Part shown: positions 10,041-52,240 of the stretch, in pieces
How positions within the stretch are numbered: position 1 is the first letter of the stretch
Layout of the letters: each line of letters begins with the position of its first letter
NCBI GenBank assembly: GCA_028820655.1
Contig: JAPPIK010000045.1
Coordinates: 62,001-126,000, forward strand
DNA from: Candidatus Poribacteria bacterium
Lineage (GTDB): Bacteria; Poribacteria; WGA-4E; JAJDTR01
Reading direction: 5' to 3'
Length of the DNA: 64,000 bases
The notes under the pieces: generated by a model
What the model saw: only the letters and a program-made list of their open reading frames with translations
Databases searched by the model: none
Told to the model about the DNA's origin: nothing
Translations under genes and position numbers: made by a program

Positions 10041-10125
10041 TCTAGATTAGAATCTGCTGGATTTTGTCAATCCAGCAGGATCGGTTTGGACCTAGAACAA
10101 AACGTAAGTTTGTTTTTGAAACTTG
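10041..10125 (-). repeat. Single inverted copy of the hairpin element that is tandem at 49.0-49.9 kb
   Basis: A stem CTGCTGGATT / AATCCAGCAG (10054-10063, 10069-10078) is preceded by AGATTAGAA and followed by CGGTTTGGA and ACAAAAC-TAAGTTT segments. The reverse complement of the repeat unit ending near 49866 shows the same blocks in the same order. The two loci therefore carry one dispersed element in opposite orientations. Confidence 0.65.
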
Positions 10126-19720: not shown

Positions 19721-19776
19721 AACTGTTTAGTCCATTGGTCTGGATTGACAAATCCGGACCAATGGACTAAACAGTT
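19721..19776. repeat. 26-bp near-perfect inverted repeat (hairpin)
   Basis: Left arm 19721-19746 and right arm 19751-19776 are reverse complements except for one T:G pair, with a 4-base loop GACA. The arm centre, TGGATT-GACA-AATCC, resembles the core of the hairpin elements at 10054 and 49.1-49.9 kb. It ends 21 bases before the SDR start codon, so in mRNA it would sit next to the translation start. There is no U-tract. The rest of the gap 19481-19720 shows nothing recognisable. Confidence 0.85.
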
Positions 19777-26958: not shown

Positions 26959-27039
26959 TTGCTAGTCGGTCACGGCTTGGACTTGGCAATCCAAGCCGAG
27001 CAGCGGGTAGAAATGGGCTTGATACAACCAGACCGCTTG

Positions 27040-40371: not shown

Positions 40372-40434
40372 TAAATATCGCCAAACCGCCACAACTGTCG
40401 AAACCAAGTTTTTCCTGAAAACTTAATTTCTTCT

Positions 40435-40487
40435 AACCACTAACCACTAACCACTGACCACTAACCACTGACCACTAACCACTGTTT
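40435..40487. repeat. Seven-base tandem repeat (TAACCAC/TGACCAC)
   Basis: About seven copies of a 7-base unit end six bases before the cas2 start. The same TGACCAC words and CCACTGTTTTT occur again inside the broken CRISPR array at ~42938-42969. Confidence 0.75.
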
Positions 40488-41817: not shown

Positions 41818-42782
41818 GTAGCAACCTATGCCCCGATGAAAAGGGGACTGAAAGGCGCAACCATCTCCTGCTCCCGCGCAACCGCCTTCGTAGCAACCTA
41901 TGCCCCGATGAAAAGGGGACTGAAAGATGAGCATAAAGAGAGTTGGGAAAAATTCAAGAAGTAGCAACCTATGCCCCGATGAAAAGGGGACTGAAAGTTC
42001 GGTTATGAGTGAGGATAAAGAGTGTATTGATGGTAGCAACCTATGCCCCGATGAAAAGGGAACTGAAAGGACCCGCTATCATGAGCAACCTTTTCTGTAG
42101 CAGGTGTAGCAACCTATGCCCCGATGAAAAGGGGACTGAAAGACTTGCCAAGCTGATTCCTTGTCTCGCCCGTGAAAGTAGCAACCTATGCCCCGATGAA
42201 AAGGGGACTGAAAGCCTGCTGATTTCTCAGGATTCATATAAGCCCCGATAGTAGCAACCTATGCCCCGATGAAAAGGGGACTGAAAGGCTGAATATACCT
42301 AGCACTTCCGAATCATCTAGTGTGTAGCAACCTATGCCCCGATGAAAAGGGGACTGAAAGACAATCATCACCTTAGCCTTGTCATTGCCGCTTGCTGTAG
42401 CAACCTATGCCCCGATGAAAAGGGGACTGAAGGCGTTAGTGGCAGTAAATGTAATTGTATTGGCGTTAGTAGCAACCTATGCCCCGATGAAAAGGGGACT
42501 GAAAGCTGTTATCGGGTATTTGCACTTGGGCGGCAATCATGTAGCAACCTATGCCCCGATGAAAAGGGGACTGAAAGATATCTATCAATGTGGCATCGTC
42601 AGCCGCAGCGTCGTAGCAACCTATGCCCCGATGAAAGGGGGACTGAAAGTGTAAAGCGGTATCCCGTGCCTGTCTCCAAACTGTAGCAACCTATGCCCCG
42701 ATGAAAAGGGGACTGAAAGTCCCGATCTCGCCGTAGTAGGTGTCGCTCAGTATGCGTAGCAACCTATGCCCCGATGAAAAGG

Positions 42783-42897: not shown

Positions 42898-43070
42898 GCC
42901 CTAGGCCAATGGGAAGCAAAGGCTGTTGCCTTTACTGGTCACTGACCACTGGCCACTGACCACTGTTTTTGCAGCAACCTATGCCCCGATGAAAAGGGGA
43001 CTGAAAGCTTCGTAACTCACGACTTCCGACGGCCAGATCTCGTGTAGCAACCTATGCCCCGATGAAAAGG

Positions 43071-48988: not shown

Positions 48989-49044
48989 GATGGTCGCCGC
49001 GATTACATCGTAGTAGGTTCTCTATTCGATATTCAAAAGGCACT

Positions 49045-49870
49045 TTCAAGAATAAACTTAAGTTTTGTCCTGAATCCAAACCGCTCCTGCTGGATTGTCA
49101 AATCCGGCAGGTCTTTATCTAACCAATAGAGTGGGTTGAATTCGATGAACCTAAGTAATCAGCTTTCCATTCTTGCTAATCCTTAAGGAAGATTAGCTTT
49201 TCAATTGAAACTTGCTCCAAAGGAAGATTCAAGAATAAGCTTTACATTTAGAGGTTGAAATAGAAAATACGCCCCCTGACTGCTCCTGCTGGATTGTCAA
49301 ATCCGGCAGGTCTTTATCTAACCAATAGAGTGGGTTGAATTCGATGAACCTAAGTAATCAGCTTTCCATTCTTGCTAATCCTTAAGGAAGATTAGCTTTT
49401 CAATTGAAACTTGCTCCAAAGGAAGATTCAAGAATAAGCTTTACATTTAGAGGTTGAAATAGAAAATACGCCCCCTGACTGCTCCTGCTGGATTGTCAAA
49501 TCCAGCAGGTCTTTATCTAACCAATAGAGTGGGTTGAATTCGATGAACCTAAGTAATTAGCTTCCCATTCTTGCTAATCCTTAAGGAAGATTAACTTTTA
49601 AATTGAAACTTGCTCCAAAGGAAGATTCAAGAATAAGCCCCCTGACTGCTCCTGCTGGATTGTCAAATCCAGCAGGCCTCTATCTAACCAATAGGGTGGG
49701 TTGAAAACGGTGAAACCAAAGTGTTCAGCTTCCTTTTCTTGCTTATCTTTAAGGAAGATTAACTTTTAAATTGAAACTTGCTCCAAAGGAAGTTTCAAGA
49801 ATAAACTTAAGTTTTGTCCTGAATCCAAACCGCTGCTGCTGGATTGTCAAATCCGGCAGGTTCTAATCTG
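49045..49870 (-). repeat. Tandem array of ~199-bp units with conserved hairpins
   Basis: Units begin (GCTCCTGCTGGATTGTCA) at 49083, 49282, 49481, 49648 and a last partial one at 49832; periods are 199, 199, 167 and 184 bases. Each has a CTGCTGGATT/AATCCRGCAG hairpin with loop GTCA; where the left arm T faces G or A the stem is still kept. Each full unit has a second hairpin GCTAATC/GATTAGC followed by T-rich sequence. The array is flanked by the same AAACTTAAGTTTTGTCCTG block on both sides. A single inverted copy lies at 10041-10125. Strand is given to match that copy and is otherwise arbitrary. Confidence 0.9.
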
Positions 49871-49897
49871 GCGATTGCGGGGCGGTTCCCCATCTCT

Positions 49898-50728
49898 GTG
49901 AAATGGATACAGTTTCGATTCGCGCCAGTCAGTGTAGAATACAAACTTCAACATGGAAGCTTGCAAAAGGGTTTTATCGCTGTGCGGGATTATGGTAATT
50001 TTGTCCGGAGACTACACGGTTTAAGCTTGCCCAATTTAGAACTGGATACGCTTGGAGAGGTCAATGGTTGCCCTATCTATCGTCTGGTGTTCGGGTCGGT
50101 TTCTCATGTGAAGTGTAAGGTCCTGATAACCGCAGGTCTCCATGGAGATGAACCGGCGGGCCCCGAAGCGGTATTACAGTTCTTGCACGAATACGACGCA
50201 GCACGCTATGACAACTTCAGGTTTCTCATCCTTCCTTGCATCAATCCATTCGGCTATGTCCACGATACTCGCGAAAACGAAACGGGAATAGATCTCAACC
50301 GTGTGTTTGAAGTCGATAATCCGCCAGAGGAAGCTCGGCTCGTCAAATCGGCGGTGGCTGGCGAACGATTCGATTTCGCAATAGATTTTCACGAAGATTG
50401 GGAAGCAGAGGGGTTTTACTTCTATGAGGGACGAAAAAGCGAAAACTGGGTCGGGCCGGAGGTCATCAAGAACGTCGAGAGCGTTTGCCCGATTGATTGG
50501 GACAATGATGAAAACGACTTGCCGATCGCTGACGCCGTGTTTAGGGTCGACCCCGCCTGGGGGCAAGAAGGTTTTACCCCCTACTTACTCGCTTTTCACT
50601 CCGACCACGTGATGATTTGCGAAACACCTACGAGATTACCAATGCGCCAGCGCACTGCCGCTCACCTGAAGGCGCTGGAGACGGTGACTATGCATTACAA
50701 TCGAGCGACTGAACAAGGAGCGCGATAG
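49898..50728 (+). CDS. M14-type zinc carboxypeptidase / succinylglutamate desuccinylase-like protein
   Basis: With GTG 49898 as start the zinc ligands are H82 and E85 (GLHGDEPAG) and H165 (DFHEDW), with the substrate-binding NETGIDLNR between them, the pattern of M14 carboxypeptidases and the AstE/AspA group. It probably removes a C-terminal or N-acyl amino acid. The start is uncertain: the frame is open to 49844, but those codons belong to the tandem repeat array, and no ATG or clear ribosome-binding site precedes conserved sequence. The last ~10 codons and the stop lie inside a GATCAA/GCGATAG-type repeat (50700-50736), so the native C-terminus seems to have been replaced. Confidence 0.75.
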   Translation: MKWIQFRFAPVSVEYKLQHGSLQKGFIAVRDYGNFVRRLHGLSLPNLELDTLGEVNGCPIYRLVFGSVSHVKCKVLITAGLHGDEPAGPEAVLQFLHEYDAARYDNFRFLILPCINPFGYVHDTRENETGIDLNRVFEVDNPPEEARLVKSAVAGERFDFAIDFHEDWEAEGFYFYEGRKSENWVGPEVIKNVESVCPIDWDNDENDLPIADAVFRVDPAWGQEGFTPYLLAFHSDHVMICETPTRLPMRQRTAAHLKALETVTMHYNRATEQGAR

Positions 50729-50736
50729 AAAGTCCC
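50700..50736 (+). repeat. GATCAA/GCGATAG element overlapping the end of the carboxypeptidase-like gene
   Basis: ATCGAGCGACTGAACAAGG then AGCGCGATAGAAAGTCCC. The TAG within GCGATAG serves as the stop codon. Confidence 0.65.
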
Positions 50737-50856
50737 TTAAGCGAGTGAATAGCTAGTAAGATTCACTATCGTCATGTAATCCTCGGTGAGACAGGGACAT
50801 CTTCCGGCGAGGCAAGACACCCCGCCCACGAAAGTTCAGTTACAGTTAGGTCGAGA

Positions 50857-51744
50857 ATGGAGACAGAGACATTACACGAAAAGATCAACATTGACAGCCT
50901 GAGCGGTTATCCTCGCCGCATTGTCTGCTTGACGGACGAAACCACCGAAACTCTCTATCTTTTGGGCGAGGAGGATCGAATTGCGGGAGTTTCGGGGTAC
51001 ACGGTTCGTCCCAAAGAGGCGCGGTCCAAGCCGAGGGTATCGGCTTTTGTCAGCGCAAAGATAGATAAGATTTTGGAATTGCGCCCGGACTTGGTGCTTG
51101 CATTTTCCGATCTGCAAGCCGACATCGTGCGAGAGTTGATCCAAAAAGGATTGACCGTCCTCGCCTTCAATCAAAGAAGCGTCGTAGAGATTCTGCAGAT
51201 GATTCAGACCTTGGCTGGTTTGGTGGGGACACCACAGAAGGGCAAAGCGCTCACGGCGGAGTTGTGGAGCGGCTTGGAGGAGATTCGGGAGTCGGCACGG
51301 CGCTTTCCTCGGCGGCCAAAGGTCTTCTTCGAGGAGTGGAACGACCCCTTGATTAGCGGTATTCAATGGGTAGAGGAACTCACCGAGCTGGCCGGAGGAG
51401 AACCGGTTTTCCCGGAACTGCGCCAGAAAGCGTTGGCGCGTGATCGCATCCTTGATCCAGACAGTGTCATCTCTCGCGATCCGGAGGTGGTTATCGCTTC
51501 GTGGTGCGGCGTCAAGGTCAATAAGGACCGAATCATGGCTAGACCCGGCTGGTCGGGAATTACCGCCGTAGGTCGAGGGCACATCTATGAGATCAAATCA
51601 ACCTATATCCTGCAACCGGGTCCGGCGGCACTGTCGGAAGGCGTCCGGCAGCTTCATCTCGCCTTGGCTCATTCCGTCGGCGTTGAGGTGGAGCCCTGGC
51701 TCAGGCCTCGTGAAAGGGTGGATGCTGCGTTGGATTCTGCGTAG
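50857..51744 (+). CDS. BtuF-like periplasmic-binding-fold protein without signal peptide
   Basis: The 295-residue protein has the class III substrate-binding fold (PF01497-like): RRIVCLTDETTETLYLLGEE at the start, ILELRPDLVLAFSD, a linker helix, VFFEEWNDPLISG, and ARPGWSGITAVGRGHIYEI near the end. These bind cobalamin, haem or iron-siderophores for ABC import. Here no signal peptide or lipobox precedes the domain, so it may be cytoplasmic; a related signal-less group is annotated as cobalamin-binding in many genomes. No permease or ATPase gene is adjacent, though two TonB-dependent receptors lie elsewhere in the window. Confidence 0.78.
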   Translation: METETLHEKINIDSLSGYPRRIVCLTDETTETLYLLGEEDRIAGVSGYTVRPKEARSKPRVSAFVSAKIDKILELRPDLVLAFSDLQADIVRELIQKGLTVLAFNQRSVVEILQMIQTLAGLVGTPQKGKALTAELWSGLEEIRESARRFPRRPKVFFEEWNDPLISGIQWVEELTELAGGEPVFPELRQKALARDRILDPDSVISRDPEVVIASWCGVKVNKDRIMARPGWSGITAVGRGHIYEIKSTYILQPGPAALSEGVRQLHLALAHSVGVEVEPWLRPRERVDAALDSA

Positions 51745-51754
51745 GCAGGGCATG

Positions 51755-52240
51755 GGGATTTCTATCGTGCAAAGATTTCTATCGCCTTCGTTATCCACTC
51801 AGTTGATCCATTTCGGTTGGGTGATTGTTTAACCCAACCGATGTGCTGTAGGAGCGATCTGCGAATCGCGACAAATAGGGAATCGGTGGGAACTCCTCCT
51901 ACCCAAATCACGTACCTCTTTTAATTTGCTCGGGGGAGGAAATCTATATAACGGAATTTTCTATCGTTCTCGCAGTCTGGTCGCTTGATTTTTTAACCCA
52001 ACCTACGCGCTGTAGGAGCGATCTCCGAATCGCGACAAATAGGGAATCAATGGGAACTCCTCGTACCCAAATCACGTACGCCGTTTAATTTGTGTGAGGG
52101 GAACTCTATCGTGCAGGATCTACTATCGCCTTAGGATCTCTATGGGATCTCTATCGCGGTCACTAACCGTTCCCTTGATCACTCGATATCCATTCGCTTG
52201 ATCTATTCACTCGGTCGATCCTACATACACATCCGATTTC
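51755..52240 (-). repeat. Repeat cluster upstream of dnaE
   Basis: Reverse-oriented GATCAA/GCGATAG copies at ~51757-51808 and several fused ones at ~52107-52226 flank a direct duplication: ~51826-51925 and ~51995-52090 share CTGTAGGAGCGATCT, GCGACAAATAGGGAATC, GGGAACTCCTC and ACCCAAATCACGTAC. The 659-base gap 51745-52403 holds no gene. Confidence 0.65.

Follow-up and report, generated by a model that had tools for sequence, protein, structure and literature searches.

The window analysed here is a stretch of 64,000 nucleotides (positions 62001-126000 of contig 18) from the genome of a Candidatus Poribacteria bacterium (G000, 61 contigs). Between two of its genes on the same strand, the upstream one being of the glutamate dehydrogenase type, lies an array of five hairpins (CTGCTGGATTGTCAAATCC[GA]GCAG) that start at 49087, 49286, 49485, 49652 and 49836 and span 49087-49859. 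The hairpin search of the window returned 10 strand matches against 0.01 expected, as many being reached in 0 of 100 shuffles, which bears out the tandem hairpin array described in a sequence-only reading of this DNA. Each hairpin carries a four-base foot on its 5′ side, and foot and hairpin together are called a REP (repetitive extragenic palindrome) below:

49083-49110, plus strand: GCTC-REP 1 (foot 49083-49086, hairpin 49087-49110)
49282-49309, plus strand: GCTC-REP 2
49481-49508, plus strand: GCTC-REP 3
49648-49675, plus strand: GCTC-REP 4
49832-49859, plus strand: REP 5, its foot changed to GCTG by mutation
49080-49638, plus strand: tandem array of 199-bp composite units (TRF 49083-49638, 2.8 copies, 98% matches)

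The hairpins are spaced by 199, 199, 167 and 184 bp. The unit of 199 bp claimed earlier is thus exact for the first units only, and a shorter related unit follows the 199-bp tandem array and reaches 49804. Segments 1 and 2 are identical at 199 of 199 positions; against segment 1, segment 3 is identical at 162 positions, with 5 mismatches and 32 gaps, and segment 4 at 154, with 27 mismatches and 21 gaps. The array opens with one left block (49033-49120), a 92% identical block appears again at 49782-49869, and units of a second type lie between the two. All array REPs are direct copies, one GCTC-REP per unit, and no inverted partner is present in the window array. The array hairpin folds at -10.5 kcal/mol, its arm variant at -8.5 and the other strand of the variant at -5.8. 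Two hairpins had been attributed to each unit: the main one is indeed found in all five, and the second is weak (z -2.0 to -2.8) and is partly the junction of two inverted-repeat ends.

Further REP-like sites occur elsewhere in the window:

10054-10082, minus strand: degenerate single REP, reversed (hairpin 10054-10078, foot GATC 10079-10082)
26974-27001, minus strand: single REP of another stem subfamily (matched part GCTCGGCTTGGATTGCCAAGTCC, 1 mismatch)
19733-19755, plus strand: degenerate REP-like site of the GGTCT subfamily, foot lost (3 mismatches, near chance level)

The copy at 10 kb, previously taken for a single inverted copy with the same flanking blocks, is real and inverted. It is degenerate, with one extra loop base, and has the left composite block, which continues to about 10125, and the hairpin of the 199-bp unit, not the full unit. 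In the sister-species genome G001, no REP was found upstream of the gene orthologous to its neighbor, a comparison that is unclean, as G001 also lacks the STAS gene that lies on the opposite side. Other repeats are present in the window. The segment 9924-10012 belongs to another abundant dispersed repeat, parts of which match at least 25 places in G001, and the intergenic segments 50697-50771 and 51743-51800 match roughly 20 and 8 places there, indicating that several more families of short repeats are present in the genome. A CRISPR-like array at 41818-42719 (repeat of about 37 nt, GTAGCAACCTATGCCCCGATGAAAAGGGGACTGAAAG, 73-bp period) is flanked by short tandem repeats, CTAACCA / ACTGGCCACTGACC, at 40433-40484 and 42934-42965.

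When copies from the same genome are aligned, they have the four-base foot and the hairpin in common, and their flanks then mostly differ; family-wide, conservation is limited to these two parts plus a weak CC upstream. An alignment of copies had been proposed in the sequence-only reading for defining the ends of the element, and its scale has to be revised: what is conserved is a REP of 28 nt linked to the gene for a RAYT (REP-associated tyrosine transposase), and this REP lies within the 199-bp unit, which is a composite. The module reads GCTC followed by N5-GGATT-GNCA-AATCC-N5′, with the foot immediately 5′ of the stem, which is 10 bp long and closes on a 4-nt GNCA loop. Searching with a pattern that leaves the foot free and keeping only sites with a G-N-C-A loop (31 of 41), we observed an exact GCTC in 27 of the 31 oriented sites and one within a single base in 30 of 31; the 3′ side is without such a block. 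Hairpin matches in the genomes of families f2 and f3 (L095-L099) looked like chance and were excluded from this count. If all foot-free sites are kept, 30 of 43 have GCTC on one side and not the other, and 13 lack it on both. No constant position for a fixed cleavage dinucleotide beside the REPs was seen in the copy alignment. At the window array and the RAYT loci, which are the places looked at, the copies are intergenic.

The stems fall into subfamilies that include GGTCT, CTGCT, GCAGT and GGCTT, the array stem being of the CTGCT type. The claim that arm changes in the array keep pairing was based on a T-G wobble, which pairs on one strand and was too weak to be informative, so covariation was tested family-wide instead; it is strong, and it lies between subfamilies. 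Many loci were retrieved with a pattern fixing the foot and the core and leaving the outer stem free, and their 77 distinct arm pairs score 4.21 of 5 for outer-stem pairing (shuffled mean 2.23, maximum 2.66). In an alignment of 21 REPs (two from the array and 19 beside RAYT genes), 96.7% of the cells are paired, 49 are double-changed and the covariation score is 0.61, none of which was equalled in 500 shuffles, and structures slid along the same alignment pair only 18-48%. These REPs were chosen by a search demanding the foot and at least 4 outer pairs, which inflates the paired percentage but not the variety of pair types. The number of pairs with double changes and the number of further pair types are unexceptional (98 and 72 of 500 shuffles). 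One core pair also changes on both arms together (GGATAGNCATATCC).

A DNA search of the whole genome detected dispersed copies on many contigs. The hairpin pattern with up to 3 mismatches gives 25 sites in G000 against 1 for a reversed-pattern control, and the module GCTCNNNNNGGATTGNCAAATCC (GCTC-N5-GGATTGNCAAATCC) with at most 1 mismatch gives 117 copies, which answers the objection that the genome might hold no further ones. Among 84 Poribacteria genomes, 13 are module-positive, with 154 copies in G007, 117 in G000, 66 in G014, 61 in G001, 25 each in G010 and G069, 16 in G012, 15 in G018, 14 in G021, 6 in G062, 4 each in G016 and G019 and 1 in G004; the reversed control is 0 in all 84, and every listed genome of family f2 has zero copies. 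Beyond this phylum, the 6-Mb genome of Desulfococcaceae HSG8 (G084) harbors 1042 copies (control 0), an Anaerolineales genome none and another Chloroflexi genome 3. A viral collection scanned with an extended module pattern gave 0 matches. The arrangement of the copies was also recorded. Among 47 of the 117 sites in G000, all of them exact matches, there are 9 close REP pairs, all direct and none inverted, as counted with a pattern that misses the core variant GGATAGNCATATCC, which gives an inverted partner in the contig-8 unit described below. HSG8 has 21 adjacent facing pairs less than 60 bp apart, feet outward, among 73 sites that were hand-picked and lean to clustered contigs. Many HSG8 GCTC-REPs lie in alternating BIME-like clusters, such as contig 66 13922-14311. 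The array hairpin is a member of a large family of short palindromes, probably mobile, in Poribacteria genomes.

The REPs are associated with a transposase gene. G000 has seven Y1 transposase matches, and the one on contig 15 is a candidate RAYT: it starts at 271160, about 110 bp past a CTGCT-type REP ending at 271048, and an inverted GCTGT-type REP lies on its far side. The nearest flanking GCTC-REPs are inverted in five of five close homologs (G000, G007, G021, G062 and HSG8), and in two more distant homologs (L113, L114) hairpins with a GCTC foot occur on a single side of the gene. The linked protein carries a Y1_Tnp domain, the NCBIfam family REP_Tyr_transpos (NF047646) is above cut-off in all three RAYT proteins tested, and the motifs NH[LI]H (HUH) and YIH[NH]NP (tyrosine) are found in all six aligned proteins. 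A species-genome scan identified homologs in Candidatus Poribacteria at 100% (matching G021) and 83% (matching G007) identity, in Desulfococcaceae HSG8 at 61%, in Anaerolineales at 59% and in another Chloroflexi bin at 58%. A PDB sequence search with the RAYT returned nothing at E <= 0.01, and hence the guide-binding residues of E. coli TnpA-REP were not compared; an AlphaFold model from six sequences (pLDDT 54) was too poor for use.

Over 58 genomes, our own included, a RAYT was detected in three, all of them among the 11 REP-positive genomes and none among the 47 REP-negative ones, the genomes being related and hence non-independent. A close RAYT is absent from 9 of the 13 REP-positive Poribacteria, including G001 (61 copies) and G014 (66), in bins that are 88-98% complete; five of the nine have no match at E <= 1e-5 and four have 24-31% matches only. 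In G000 itself, the RAYT (L104 1429-1984, contig 15) has a frameshift after residue ~154, downstream of the catalytic tyrosine motif, and from its sequence may be dead or decayed, or may contain an assembly base error. REPs may survive the loss of their RAYT; alternatively, the bins may lack sequence or contain a base error.

In both G000 and G001, CTGCT-type REPs are also found inside a composite of 190-260 bp with terminal inverted repeats (TTAAGCAAGTTTCAA...TTGAAACTTGCTTAA). Its left end, GCAAGTTTCAANAATAAACTTA, lies 44 bp before the REP, sometimes 59-60 or 77, and its right end, ..TTGAAACTTGC or ..AACTTTTATATTGAAACTTGC, lies 82-159 bp past it, at several loci in the two species. Whole composites measure 192 bp (G000 contig 37) and 221, 242 and 243 bp (G001), with a maximum of about 260 bp where one end is degenerate. 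At the array, the corresponding edges are the following:

49040-49061, plus strand: left inverted-repeat end of the array composite (GCACTTTCAAGAATAAACTTAA); AAAAGG at 49035-49040 overlaps its first base
49945-49964, plus strand: likely right inverted-repeat end (..CTTCAACATGGAAGCTTGC), degenerate; AAAAGG at 49965-49970 is next to it
49036-49976, plus strand: segment without a sister-species counterpart (941 bp here, 14 bp in G001)

The two genes that flank the array are contiguous in G001 save for 14 bp, against the 941 bp that lie here between the glutamate dehydrogenase-type gene and the next. We thus observe an array-free site in the sister species, and the 14 bp fail to align with the array edges, so that AAAAGG is at most a candidate target duplication. 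The block is lineage-specific, and a comparison of the array site between relatives, as proposed in the sequence-only reading, is compatible with either a gain in G000 or a loss in G001.

These ends raise a second explanation, namely that the block is a MITE-like element with terminal inverted repeats, mobilized by a DDE-type transposase, and that it took up the REP hairpin as a passenger in the distant past. We regard this as a strong contender, with somewhat less than an even chance of being correct. The ends GCAAGTTTCAANAATAAACTTA and ..AACTTTTATATTGAAACTTGC surround the REP at several loci of two species, giving elements of the lengths listed above, the entire 941 bp has no counterpart in G001, and AAAAGG is directly repeated at both outer edges of the array. 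However, many copies consist of the bare foot and hairpin without composite arms, and the target duplications are inconsistent between composites, with AAAAGG at the array and TTA/TTAA-like ends elsewhere. A MITE reading of the block can be compatible with a REP reading of the hairpin.

The identity of segments 1 and 2 fits a recent tandem duplication. In a genome of 61 contigs, it could also mean that the assembly of this repetitive region in a metagenome bin got the unit number wrong, which we consider improbable: segments 3 and 4 each carry private substitutions and gaps, the array runs without a break into unique genes on either side, and tandem REP units are found elsewhere in the same genome. 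Contig 8 (L192 543-1228) contains a tandem array of 238 bp x 2.9, whose unit combines a GTAG hairpin with two inverted GCTC-REPs, and contig 13 contains one of 160 bp x 4.4. The contig-8 and contig-13 units are unrelated in sequence, and the best pairwise shared stretch between units is the REP region; tandem growth is therefore recurrent in G000. Together with the 117 copies and the array-free sister site, these arrays agree with the earlier view of a dispersed element that expands in tandem.

The further proposal that the array is transcribed as a repeated structured RNA found no support, and we consider it quite unlikely that the hairpins form such an RNA or serve to terminate transcription of the upstream gene. 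The array does lie between two same-strand genes, and three of the five hairpins are followed by TCTTTATC, which is terminator-like (3 found against 1.2 expected), but no Rfam family was found in a search of the window, promoter-like sites are at chance (2 against 2.2 expected), and most copies have unrelated 3′ flanks with no T run. The covarying stem, the near-invariant GCTC foot and the RAYT link are all accounted for by REP biology. Finally, although the linked protein has a Y1_Tnp domain, it is very improbable that the hairpins are the ends of non-autonomous IS200/IS605 elements, as REP_Tyr_transpos is above cut-off while IS200 is below it in the sole protein showing it, the close homolog is single per genome, the Y...NP motif given for class 2 in the main text of PMC6006769 is present, and the aligned copies show no constant body enclosed by two different hairpin ends.

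We consider it very likely that the array hairpins are GCTC-foot REPs, that their cognate enzyme is most likely the contig-15 RAYT, and that a composite containing one such REP was multiplied in tandem. By analogy with the TnpA-REP proteins of E. coli and Stenotrophomonas, the RAYT would bind the REP as single-stranded DNA, read the GCTC foot as a guide, nick near the hairpin and move or copy the REP. If the direction of change was insertion, as we infer, one composite would have come to lie after the glutamate dehydrogenase-type gene and given rise to tandem copies, its direct repeats probably having recombined unequally or slipped during replication. Another transposase may have moved the entire block by way of the inverted repeats, whose presence suggests such an enzyme and counts against a pure REP/RAYT account.

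Many of these features are familiar from the GTAG REPs and REPtrons of E. coli and Stenotrophomonas TnpA-REP (main texts of PMC2817692, PMC3733652 and PMC8266576): a short palindrome with a tag of four unpaired bases on the 5′ side of its stem, stems whose arms change in complementary fashion and fall into several subfamilies, and copies that are dispersed and also form doublets and clusters. The same literature, again in its main texts, describes RAYT genes bracketed by two inverted REPs (PMC2817692), covers pseudomonad and Stenotrophomonas REPs (PMC3686654), reports tandem REP clusters with flanking DNA (PMC3733652), and shows for TnpA-REP single-stranded REP recognition with CT or CA cleavage selected via the GTAG guide (PMC8266576). 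The Poribacteria family differs in its tag, GCTC and not GT[AG]G, in a nearly fixed loop and upper stem (GGATTGNCAAATCC), and in its hosts, which are Poribacteria and Desulfococcaceae, with close RAYT homologs in Anaerolineales and another Chloroflexi bin. In contrast to the alternating REPs of classical BIMEs, the array units are direct repeats with one GCTC-REP each.

Other tags are known: the main text of PMC3733652 describes GTAG and CGTC, and according to that of PMC6006769 most TnpA-REP subclasses have GT[AG]G, subclass 2.6 has atypical structures and class 3 has CnGA. CGTC REPs are likewise palindromes with a 4-nt tag at one end, but the tag is another one and they are reportedly without a dedicated transposase (main text of PMC3733652), whereas GCTC-REPs flank a RAYT. 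TnpA-Y1 subclass 2.6 (Bertels group 5) resembles the RAYT described here in its NH[LIV]H and YIH[QN]NP motifs and its length of about 180 residues (Table 1 of PMC6006769), and its non-GTAG “atypical secondary structures” are copied in the genome. Only two of three motifs fit, however, as the RAYT has WE and the table WQ, and the subclass is mostly from Bacteroidetes and has weaker structures; its feet are listed in the supplement of PMC6006769, and GCTC may or may not be among them. GCTC was not found as a tag in the main texts of PMC3733652, PMC6006769 or PMC12306157, the letters occur, in the passages of PMC2817692 and PMC3686654 covered here, only inside listed GTAG/GTGG repeats, and none of six core strings was found in the literature searched. 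A GCTC-foot REP with a RAYT link may therefore be new among the texts searched, at the level of their main text.

Under the published guide rule, bases 4 and 3 of the guide, or 4 and 2, pair with the dinucleotide that is cut, and GCTC thus predicts a GA or GG cut. Our broader proposal, which we favor slightly, is that a RAYT lineage present in at least two phyla (Poribacteria and Desulfococcaceae, perhaps also Chloroflexi) would read a GCTC guide and a fixed GGATT-GNCA-AATCC top, forming a third class of REP tag with its own RAYT and cutting at GA or GG and not at CT, and that in Poribacteria composites with inverted repeats would have captured these REPs and undergone tandem amplification. 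REP tags are regarded as guides that determine where the RAYT cuts. A natural REP family whose guide is another one and hardly varies, with about 1000 copies in one genome, would provide a direct test of the guide rule. From a biological perspective, these findings extend RAYT-linked REPs to groups for which the papers compared contain no such report, and they show that, in an uncultured lineage, blocks bearing REPs have grown in tandem more than once.
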